Part shown: piece after piece, positions 1,326 to 10,911 of the stretch
Position numbering within the stretch: the first letter of the stretch is position 1
How the letters are laid out: the number at the start of each line of letters is the position of its first letter
NCBI GenBank assembly: GCA_023269245.1
Contig: JAHFMB010000025.1
Location: 1-11,122 of the forward strand
DNA length: 11,122 nt
Origin: Candidatus Tayloriibacteriota bacterium
GTDB taxonomy: Bacteria > Patescibacteriota > Minisyncoccia > Phycocordibacterales > PALSA-1337
Direction of reading: 5' to 3'
Made by a program: the position numbers and the translations under genes
The notes under the pieces: generated by a model
What the model was told of the DNA's origin: nothing
The model's database searches: none
The model's input: the letters and a program-made list of their open reading frames with translations, nothing else

Positions 1326-2809
1326 TAAGATTTGATTCGGCGGAAGCCATTACTAATAAGAAACGTTGTTAGTTTGCTGGTCTTGGTCGGTGCTACAGCG
1401 TACAACAACAAACGTGATGCGGTAATAGCGGTGAACATCGAGACCACCACGCCGACCACAAAGACAAGGGCAAATCCGGTAATGACTGCACTACTACCAA
1501 AGACAAAGAGAATAATACCGGTGATGATGCTTGACGTATTGGAATCGCGGATAGACAGCCAGGCGCGATCAAATCCTTCATGCATAGCTTCCCAAATGCC
1601 ATGGCCACGGGCAAGCTCCTCCTTCATGCGCTCAAAAATGAGAATGTTCGCATCGACGGCCATGCCGATGGAAAGAATGAAACCAGCGATACCAGTAGCG
1701 GTCAATGTCACCGGGCTCAATGCACCCGGAATAAGCGCCAGCAAGATATACGCAGCCGGAATGCCGAACAAAAATCCTCGGTGCCACCACATCGACAGAA
1801 ATCCGAAGAAGAGCACAATCACCAGGAGCGCCGGCGACACACCAATTTTGAAGATGGCGAGGTTGAGAGCGATATAACAGGCCAATGCAACTACGGCGAT
1901 GACCCCCGGCACGCGATACCAGAGTATCAAAAATGCGGCAATAATAATGAAGGCAACAATGCCTGCCTTGATGCCGCCGTTGACGGCAGCCTGGCCGAGC
2001 GACGGCCCAATAGTCTGTGTGGAAATAAGTTTGATAGGGACCGGGAGGGCGCCATAATTGAGATCGCGGACCAGGCGTTTTGCTTCATCGATGGTAAATG
2101 AGCCACTGATCTGGGCCTTGCCATCGAGGATAGCATCGCGGACCACTGGGACGGAGATATCTTTGCCATCAAGGAAAATACCGAGGTAATTGCCGACATT
2201 CTCTTTGGTAATCTTGGCGAACAAGTCGCGACCATCACTCGTAAATGTCAGACCGACCGTCGGCTGATTTGTCGTGGTATTAAATTCGAGGACTGCTTTG
2301 GCCACCATAGTTCCATTCAAACCTGTCGGTTTGAAGAGGGCCATGTAAGCGGCCTGCTGCAAGGTTGTGCTCGCAATCTCGGTGCTTGAAGCCTGGAACG
2401 TACGCATCGCGTCCGCGGTCACCAGTTTGAATTCAAGAGACGGTGTCGCGCCGATAGATCGTGCAGCTTCTTCGGCATCCGTGACACCCGGCAGCTCGAC
2501 GATAAGCTTGTAGGCGCTCTCTTTTGAACTCAATGTCTTTGCTTCTTCGGTCTGCACAAGCGGCTCGCTGACGCCAAACTGGTTGACGCGGCGCTCAACC
2601 ACATCGCGGAGGGATGACATGGAGTCGCCAATATCTGTCGCAGCGAGCTTTGAGACATCCGCCTGGTATACGAGGTGGGTTCCACCTGAGAGATCGAGGC
2701 CGAGACGGAATGGATACGCACTACCCGGCTGGTCGGATACGTAGACAAAATAGCCGATGGCTGCGGCAACAATAAGGAGCATGACTGCCCGAGCGCGGTG
2801 TTTTAGCAT
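1325..2809 (-). CDS. secD: Protein translocase subunit SecD, with extra hydrophobic insertion
   Basis: This 494-residue protein is the SecD partner of SecF in the membrane-bound, proton-driven secretion motor. An N-terminal helix (about 9-24) precedes the hallmark LGLDLSGGTHLVYQ (36-49). A periplasmic-type P1 domain follows, including RRVNQFGVSEP (73-83), then GALPVP (253-258), TIGPSLG (266-272) and the C-terminal helix block with GMAVDANILIFERMKEEL (382-399). Between the helix ending at AIFKI (318-322) and PVTLT (366-370) lie about 43 extra residues with two further hydrophobic stretches. Most SecD proteins join these parts almost directly. The start ATG is at 2807-2809, with a TATAAT box 9 bp upstream and a pyrimidine-rich stretch instead of a ribosome binding site. 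secF follows 33 bp downstream. Confidence 0.95.
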   Translation of the reverse strand: MLKHRARAVMLLIVAAAIGYFVYVSDQPGSAYPFRLGLDLSGGTHLVYQADVSKLAATDIGDSMSSLRDVVERRVNQFGVSEPLVQTEEAKTLSSKESAYKLIVELPGVTDAEEAARSIGATPSLEFKLVTADAMRTFQASSTEIASTTLQQAAYMALFKPTGLNGTMVAKAVLEFNTTTNQPTVGLTFTSDGRDLFAKITKENVGNYLGIFLDGKDISVPVVRDAILDGKAQISGSFTIDEAKRLVRDLNYGALPVPIKLISTQTIGPSLGQAAVNGGIKAGIVAFIIIAAFLILWYRVPGVIAVVALACYIALNLAIFKIGVSPALLVIVLFFGFLSMWWHRGFLFGIPAAYILLALIPGALSPVTLTATGIAGFILSIGMAVDANILIFERMKEELARGHGIWEAMHEGFDRAWLSIRDSNTSSIITGIILFVFGSSAVITGFALVFVVGVVVSMFTAITASRLLLYAVAPTKTSKLTTFLISNGFRRIKS

Positions 2810-10130: not shown

Positions 10131-10243
10131 TGTTCCGGCGGCAAGCTACTTTCGCCCCTTAGGACTATCATCGCCGCAACTACGTTTCACTGCCGTGTTC
10201 GGAATGGGAACGGGTGTTGCCATAGCGCCAAACCACCAGAACA
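10131..10243 (-). rRNA. rrf: 5S ribosomal RNA
   Basis: The - strand contains the conserved 5S core CCCGTTCCCATTCCGAACACGG. Its ends form the expected helix I: the 5' TGTTCTGGTGG pairs with the 3' CCGCCGGAACA, with G-U wobbles. The mature length is about 113 nt, and the exact ends are uncertain by a few bases. Outside the helix, flanks 10117-10126 and 10248-10257 are perfect 10-bp complements, forming a processing stalk around the precursor. It lies about 70 bp after the 23S 3' end, in the usual 23S-5S order, and is followed by an intrinsic terminator. Confidence 0.93.
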
Positions 10244-10606
10244 CAGAATTCAATATGAACCTCAGTATCTCAAGTAATGCAAAGCACGCATATTTGTAAC
10301 TGCGACTTTCAAAATTCCTAATAGGATCGACGGATTAGTACATCACGGCTCAACACCTTACGGTGCGTACACCTAATGCCTATCAACGTGATCATCTCTC
10401 ACGGGTCTCAACGATACCTCATCTTGGGGCTGGCTTCCCGCTTATATGCTTTCAGCGGTTATCCAATCCGAACATAGCTACCCTGCGTTGCTCTTGGCAG
10501 AACAGCAGGTAGACCAGAGGTTCGTTCAACTCGGTCCTCTCGTACTAGAGTCAAATCCCCTCAAGTATCAACGCCTACAGTAGATAGGAGACCAACCTGT
10601 CTCACG

Positions 10607-10849
10607 CATGGTATCAACAATTACTTGTTGCATTGGACTATAGCTTATTCCCTTCTGACATTCAGAATGAAACGTCGATGTTTAGTCTCTACGGGCGGCT
10701 CTCGCCTTCCCTCGGTATTATCCTCAGATTTCTCTAAGGGTTTCCACCGATATAAATCGACTTCATCATTTCAATACAGAAATGACCGCCATGATATGAT
10801 TGATTCTTTCCTCTCTTTTTCATAGATTACTAAGTTTCTCGAAGTGATT

Positions 10850-10879
<30 letters not shown>
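10607..10879 (-). ncRNA. Group I intron (self-splicing ribozyme) in 23S rRNA at E. coli position 2593
   Basis: This 273-nt insertion follows U2593 and ends in G, as group I introns do. All core helices can be drawn. P1 is exon GACCGU 10880-10885 with guide GCGGUC 10784-10789, giving the splice-site U-G wobble. P2 is 10779-10785/10766-10772. P3 is GUCGAU 10756-10761 with 10674-10679. P4 is 10746-10750/10712-10716. P5 is 10733-10739/10722-10728 with a GAAA loop. P6 lies in 10693-10711. P7 is GACUA 10683-10687 with UAGUC 10636-10640. P8 is 10662-10667/10653-10658. P9 is 10625-10630/10615-10620 with a GUAA loop. The R-like GUAGAGACUA and S-like AAGCUAUAGUCC elements are clear. There is no homing-endonuclease ORF. 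The same site holds the I-CreI intron of Chlamydomonas chloroplasts. It is expected to excise itself using guanosine, leaving mature 23S rRNA. Confidence 0.93.

Positions 10880-10911
<32 letters not shown>

Follow-up and report, generated by a model that had tools for sequence, protein, structure and literature searches.

The Chlamydomonas chloroplast intron that carries the I-CreI endonuclease interrupts what we take to be the same 23S rRNA site as the intron described here. In the Tetrahymena rRNA intron, the 5′ exon can form a hairpin of its own, P(-1), an alternative helix made by exon-exon pairing that competes with P1. Cyanobacterial L2593 introns with a LAGLIDADG ORF have been described by Haugen et al. 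(2007, PMC1995217). For CPR bacteria, the available portion of a later survey (Tsurumaki et al., 2024, PMC11270868) places group I introns with LAGLIDADG_1 proteins at position 2593 of the 23S gene and counts 222 group I introns without an ORF among CPR 23S genes, with the ORF-bearing and ORF-less forms at sites 23IS6-14 scattered over the host tree; by the order of the site list in that portion, 2593 corresponds to 23IS12. The intron analysed here has the same site and the same host group as these CPR introns, in agreement with an earlier statement, made without database searches, that rRNA introns occur in CPR bacteria, and it shares the insertion site and the group I fold with the cyanobacterial ones. 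However, the latter, in the part of their description available, measure 744-748 nt, contain the ORF of an endonuclease and are extended by P7.1/P7.2, whereas the present intron lacks an ORF and its L1 is large. Given that both papers report introns at 2593, the intron alone is of a known kind.

The window, meaning the whole 11,122-nt stretch of DNA that was analysed, contains the 3′ part of a 23S rRNA gene (11122-10314, minus strand) with a 5S gene downstream, as identified by covariance-model matches (RF02541 and RF00001). Alignment of this part with the LSU model showed one large insertion, at the place of the intron (Table 1). The same alignment skips about 13 consensus positions (model about 2815-2827) near 10410, where a small 23S helix appears to be missing. 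No tRNA was found in the window by ARAGORN. On the minus strand the intron and its flanks read ...GGGTTCAGACCGT / TCAGTG...ACCATG / CGTGAGACAG. The borders 10607-10879 proposed by the first-pass annotation proved exact, because a congener (G386, locus L044) has both flanks joined as ...GACCGT/CGTGAG..., with 0 bases between them, and so represents the empty site. The last nucleotide of the 5′ exon is U2593 in E. coli numbering, counted from landmarks that we take to be correctly placed. This numbering agrees with the site name used in the available parts of PMC1995217 and PMC11270868, which, together with the insertion in the LSU model and the flanks, upholds the earlier placement of the intron after U2593. 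A plasmid search with the intron and its flanks returned 482 records, none covering 80% of the query, and the best 20 of the 482 cover the 5′ exon end only.

Table 1. Coordinates of the intron, its helices, the proposed P0 helix and the neighbouring rRNA features in the window.
Feature	Position	Strand	Basis
ORF-less group I intron, 273 nt, after U2593	10607..10879	-	RF00028 E=5.2e-8; exact empty site in G386
Internal guide GCGGUC; P1 with exon GACCGU (10880-10885), U-G at splice site	10784..10789	-	sequence
P10 strand UCAUG, pairs with 3′ exon CGUGA (10602-10606)	10790..10794	-	helix 89.7% paired in 29-sequence alignment
Terminal (omega) G	10607..10607	-	G in 22/22 genus and 12/12 order introns
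P2 5′ strand AUUUC (3′ strand 10768-10772)	10779..10783	-	read from sequence, in predicted fold; uncounted in alignment
P3 5′ strand (3′ strand 10674-10679)	10756..10761	-	97.7% paired, both-side changes in 6/6 pairs
P4 5′ strand (3′ strand 10712-10716)	10746..10750	-	95.2% paired
P5 5′ strand (3′ strand 10722-10727)	10734..10739	-	sequence; 53.1% paired, poorly aligned, lengths vary
P6 inner 5′ strand GGC (3′ strand 10697-10699)	10704..10706	-	sequence; broken in alignment into two helices, 87.9% and 40.7%
P7 5′ strand GACTA (3′ strand 10636-10640)	10683..10687	-	100% paired, one pair with both-side changes
P8 5′ strand (3′ strand 10648-10656)	10664..10672	-	sequence and RF00028 alignment; uncounted in core alignment
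P9 5′ strand (GUAA loop; 3′ strand 10615-10620)	10625..10630	-	100% paired, both-side changes in 5/6 pairs
5′ exon strand of proposed P0 lower stem (2582-2590)	10883..10891	-	pairs with 10854-10846
Anti-exon element E (GTCTGAATCA), proposed P0 lower stem; 10845 A faces G2581, unpaired	10845..10854	-	complement search, inverted-repeat scan
Proposed P0 upper stem 5′ strand: exon G2592, U2593 and intron +1..+4, spans splice site	10876..10881	-	pairing counts
Proposed P0 upper stem 3′ strand (CTGGAC); 10855 A faces C2591, mismatch	10855..10861	-	pairing counts
23S rRNA 5′ exon, partial, runs off contig end	10880..11122	-	RF02541 468.7 bits
23S rRNA 3′ exon	10314..10606	-	RF02541 match
5S rRNA, downstream of 23S	10133..10240	-	RF00001 69.3 bits

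A search with the group I covariance model RF00028 matched 10808-10614 on the minus strand (36.8 bits), and the same match was the single one in the whole genome. The gathering score is 50, so the window intron escapes annotation at that threshold; the same-site introns of two congeners pass it (G383, 55.4 bits; G390, 55.1 bits). The core helices were evaluated in an alignment of 29 introns, including that of the window, out of the 34 from the genus and order, L029, L036, L039, L040 and L052 having been left out by hand for length. Over the helices drawn for the window, 87.9% of the cells are paired and the covariation score is 0.397, compared with 0.135 +/- 0.010 after shuffling (0 of 500 shuffles reach the observed value), while pairing falls to 33-40% when partners are slid by one to three columns. 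Changes on both sides of a pair were found mainly in P3 and P9. The P3, P4, P7 and P9 core that marks a group I intron is present and pairs beyond chance, and with the sub-threshold RF00028 match this bears out the original identification.

The splice signals were examined in 149 distinct introns. The 5′ exon ends in T in all 149, which were cut with exon anchors that tolerated 2-3 substitutions and themselves ended in CGT. Facing the exon-terminal U is the G with which the guide begins, confirming the U-G splice-site pair named beforehand, and the guide GCGG occurs in the window and its relatives in a conserved context. In 108 of the 149, the four bases preceding the assigned guide form four of four P10 pairs with the 3′ exon. 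The terminal G, also predicted, is invariant in the genus and order (Table 1), where it was demanded by the search patterns for the loci those brought in but not by the genus DNA search. On the intron strand, the longest ORF that has a start codon measures 29 aa, as expected from the claimed absence of an endonuclease gene, and a hidden endonuclease ORF was rejected on this basis; the window intron thus differs from the I-CreI type, in which the endonuclease ORF lies inside the L2593 intron. A 66-codon frame lies on the opposite strand. Taken together, we infer that the insert is a self-splicing group I intron.

We then surveyed the distribution of the intron in records that are mostly metagenome bins. 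A G-ended insert before CGTGAGACAG was found by pattern search in 33 of 379 phylum genomes and the empty-site pattern in 113, three genomes showing both, and the rest match neither pattern because of gaps, exon variants or missing rRNA. Two loci with G for U at 2593 and no intron (L115, L071) were false pattern matches. By DNA search, the intron with its flanks matched 24 of the 34 genus genomes. Both exons were readable in 22, and 21 of these carry an ORF-less intron (22 introns, one genome having two copies) while one is empty; the other two of the 24 were G391, with the 5′ exon only at a contig end, and G411, a weak match that was left out. One assembly (G385, 1.4 Mb, 5% contamination) has two 23S copies (L042, L043) with different L2593 introns of 301 and 397 nt, and may represent two organisms.

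The 22 genus introns are 273-681 nt long and the 12 order introns 274-494 nt, and no open stretch of more than 70 codons occurs among these 34 introns at 2593. Outside the order, 14 of 19 phylum introns carry an ORF of 148 or more codons. All four intron ORFs tested are LAGLIDADG_1, and that of the CPR locus L104 was identified by comparison with solved structures as a relative of I-CreI and I-MsoI (I-CreI chains, E ~1e-20), the former belonging to the Chlamydomonas intron that presumably shares this 23S site. LAGLIDADG_1 had no match in the window's genome, which is 83% complete, leaving mobilisation in trans, one of the two origins suggested by the first-pass annotation, without support in this genome; in the genus, 10 of 34 genomes have a match, 7 of them over the cut-off. 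Intron-core distances correlate with 23S exon distances weakly in the genus (Mantel r=0.23, p=0.019, n=21 of 22 introns) and also in genus and order together (r=0.38, p=0.0025, n=33 of 34), a pattern that would suit mainly vertical descent. An old, vertically kept intron is the better of the two suggested origins, favoured by carriage in 21 of 22 genomes and by the weak distance correlation, but the scatter over the host tree described in the available portion of PMC11270868 speaks against it.

Other features were noticed inside introns of relatives. L040 (G397) has a tRNA-like gene at 1201-1280 on the minus strand, by eye in the P6 loop of its L2593 intron (RF00005, 56.7 bits), which ARAGORN with introns allowed reads as tRNA-Arg(GCG) with 8 extra anticodon-loop bases. 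With the same setting, intron positions 374-508 of L029 (G393) read as a tRNA-like tRNA-Ser(CGA) with a 45-nt anticodon-loop insert, where ordinary ARAGORN gave no tRNA and no tRNA match reached the Rfam gathering score. The peripheral loops of L036, L043, L033 and L024 hold, by eye, long imperfect hairpins of repeated units (such as AAAGTCCATAAAGTC), like small mobile repeats.

We found a second complement to the exon within the intron, which the first-pass annotation had missed, as it had the 2024 report of the site. The window's L1, from the 5′ splice site to the guide, is 90 nt long, and 10854-10845 within it reads GTCTGAATCA, the first nine bases of which complement the exon sequence GGTTCAGAC with one G.U pair. 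This anti-exon element, E, lies 5′ of the guide in the enlarged P1 loop, and the helix that it forms with the exon, P0, continues through the 5′ splice site into the intron. The inverted repeat was also found by a separate scan allowing three mismatches, and 0 of 200 shuffles gave two matches. P1 of the window (2588-2593) overlaps P0, and overlaps its lower stem at 2588-2590; therefore, a full P0 blocks P1 and might slow splicing. Directly 3′ of E, at 10838-10844 of the window and in relatives, a CUUCGAG / CCGAGG / CUCAGAGG motif recurs by eye, and no partner could be assigned to this conserved GAGG / CUUCGAG stretch.

To avoid circularity, E was located in each relative as the best exon complement with positions 2586 and 2588 masked, these being the only exon positions free of selection by the search. 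L1 is at most 22 nt in 28 of the 149 introns, 23-39 nt in 13, 40-300 nt in 106 and more than 300 nt in two that were mis-assigned. A score of at least 6.5 of 8 was obtained for 98 of the 106 introns with L1 of 40-300 nt against 18.8% of shuffled L1s, and a score of 7 or more for 71 of the 106 against 5.0%; the window's own E, with G2581 unpaired, scores 6.5, the value that 18.8% of shuffles reach. At the masked positions of these 98 introns, 2588 forms G:C in 59, A:U in 32 and G.U in 6 with 1 mismatch, and 2586 forms C:G in 93 and U:A in 4 with 1 mismatch. The remaining eight of the 106 have no E at the 6.5 threshold, and the guide was mis-assigned for at least L102 among them. By eye, automatic guide assignment was wrong for L102 and, outside the set of 106, for L052 and L091, and probably for L154 (L1 of 554), and the located E is doubtful for L084 and L175; the counts given are those from the automatic assignment.

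The upper part of P0 lies next to a conserved mismatch. C2591 is unpaired in 84 of the 98 introns, whereas G2592 is paired in 96 and U2593 in 91, and intron positions +1, +2, +3 and +4 are paired in 91, 87, 92 and 84. When partner strands were swapped between introns, pairing at +1 to +4 fell to 59, 45, 72 and 78%, and 0 of 500 permutations reached the observed pairing sum over +1..+6, although permutations ignore relatedness. U2593 faces A in 79 of 98 introns and G in 12, so that most P0 helices are without the U-G that marks the splice site. For this reason, and because the guide GCGG is also present in introns without E, P0 was rejected as the true P1. Overall, the evolutionary pairing of P0 is well supported; its function is inferred.

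P0 resembles P(-1) of Tetrahymena in being an alternative 5′ exon helix that competes with P1, but here the intron supplies a dedicated, covarying strand, whereas P(-1) pairs exon with exon. We found no exon-complementary element in L1 in literature titles and abstract starts, a search of limited coverage that is no proof of absence. The word 'hairpin' is absent from the main text of PMC11270868, and no exon-complementary element or splice-site hairpin was found in the portion of that paper available. The exon-complementary L1 element is the part that we did not find in the literature, the intron and its site being largely known.

For exon and L1 alone, with no core contacts or pseudoknots, the predicted advantage of P0 over the nested P1 is 11.8 kcal/mol in the window; over the set it ranges from 0 to 34.8, with a median of 13.7. 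The exon:E helix is present in the predicted fold of exon plus L1 for 81 of 98 introns. We consider it probable, though by no means certain, that a group I intron that has long been inherited with no homing endonuclease splits the peptidyl-transferase strand after U2593 and holds that strand for splicing with a P0 clamp. E would act as a second exon-binding strand besides the guide (P1, P10), pairing with exon 2582-2590, which includes U2584 and U2585. In the order of transcription, P0 would form first and hold the 5′ splice site in a hairpin before the core is made. Once the guide and the core appear, P1 would take the exon end, the upper half of P0 opening at the conserved C2591 mismatch as P1, P10 and core contacts displace it. 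The lower part may stay as a pseudoknot with P1, at 2582-2589 beside a 4-bp P1 or at 2582-2587 beside the possible 6-bp P1 of the window. It would thereby keep the exon strand off the native rRNA helices until the exons are joined. The native helix competing for this strand is presumably H93. This chaperone role seems to us the likeliest use of P0, though somewhat less likely than not.

The other readings that accept both the intron and P0 differ in what P0 does. It could be a negative switch, the hairpin concealing the 5′ splice site and keeping splicing off until it is opened by a protein or by a step of ribosome assembly. The inclusion of U2593 and intron +1..+4 in P0, its greater predicted stability and the predominance of A opposite U2593 all suit such a switch, but C2591 is mostly unpaired, and the introns with a short L1 do not fit. 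Of the 13 introns whose L1 measures 23-39 nt, 10 show by eye a CAAAA-like stretch immediately followed by a short sequence complementary to exon 2581-2588 (AACC, AATCC or more), the exceptions being L009, L052 and L055, of which L052 is mis-assigned; therefore, only the lower stem forms and CCGU is left in the loop. In L104, exon A2586 faces a matching U (positions by eye). Complement runs of 6 or more were found in 17 of 19 introns with L1 of 24-60 nt, modestly above the 39% of shuffles, and runs of 7 or more in 8 of 19 against 9%. In most short-L1 introns the splice site thus lies in the loop, so blocking is not what the introns have in common, and we regard the negative switch as unlikely. 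The short-L1 introns also count in favour of the clamp reading: the lower stem that they keep, which they point to as the core of the feature, could coexist with P1 as a pseudoknot, and the upper stem that spans the splice site looks like an addition.

E might instead extend the target recognition of the excised intron for endonuclease-free reverse splicing into intronless 23S RNA. In the window, the guide (P1, P10) and E account between them for about 17 nt of the ligated site, and introns carrying E are mostly ORF-less; of the 38 with an open stretch of at least 140 codons, 5 have E. Seven ORF-bearing introns labelled non-CPR (L069, L086, L091, L097, L098, L102 and L117) lack E and have their guide some 8-11 nt away from the splice site, L091 and L102 having been judged by eye where automatic guide assignment failed; one record, L121, labelled Burkholderiales, carries E, is ORF-less and CPR-like, and is presumably a mislabelled bin. 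However, some ORF-bearing introns also have E, the distribution in the genus is near-fixed and roughly vertical, and the reverse-transcription route is hypothetical, which makes this explanation quite improbable in our view.

It has also to be considered that E arose by accident as an inverted exon copy, the match to exon variants reflecting linkage through homing co-conversion, not selection, as homing could carry exon flank and intron together. The 2588 variants are indeed shared within lineages, and the independent-pair tests on 2588 and 2586 had few supported pairs; for co-change at 2588, four pairs were supported, 3.4 on average changing the same way and none the opposite way (p 0.125 or more), which is not significant. 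On an exon tree of 115 introns (34 were dropped for short flanks or further inserts), the 2588 pair changed eight times. The +1..+4 partners, by contrast, vary and yet pair, with at least 20 switches between Watson-Crick types for the +1 pair (57 rows) and at least 23 for the +2 pair (62 rows), on a quick and weakly resolved tree of about 450 positions of short rRNA flanks, in which tree error inflates the change counts and movement of introns between hosts may affect them. These changes leave an accidental copy very unlikely. Finally, the insert could be an intervening sequence cut out by RNase III without ligation. P0 is a long hairpin, and PMC11270868 (available portion) considers short inserts of this type to be present in CPR 23S genes, but the core covaries, the guide pairs with both exons, the terminal G is present and the site lies in a conserved catalytic strand. 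With a group I core present, this reading is hardly credible and was rejected.

This intron interrupts a part of the ribosome that is among the most conserved, and the cell depends on the intron's clean exit. The covarying exon-intron helix beside P1 suggests that the intron guides or times the folding of its exon, and because each P0 pair can be broken and restored, a direct bench test is possible. More broadly, and only tentatively, CPR-type group I introns may have evolved a second exon-binding site, in which a splice-site hairpin and a pseudoknot with P1 would serve as a chaperone for rRNA folding, built into the intron and letting it persist in the catalytic centre of the ribosome without an endonuclease. 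Guidance of exon folding could in this way explain the persistence of ORF-less introns at the site.
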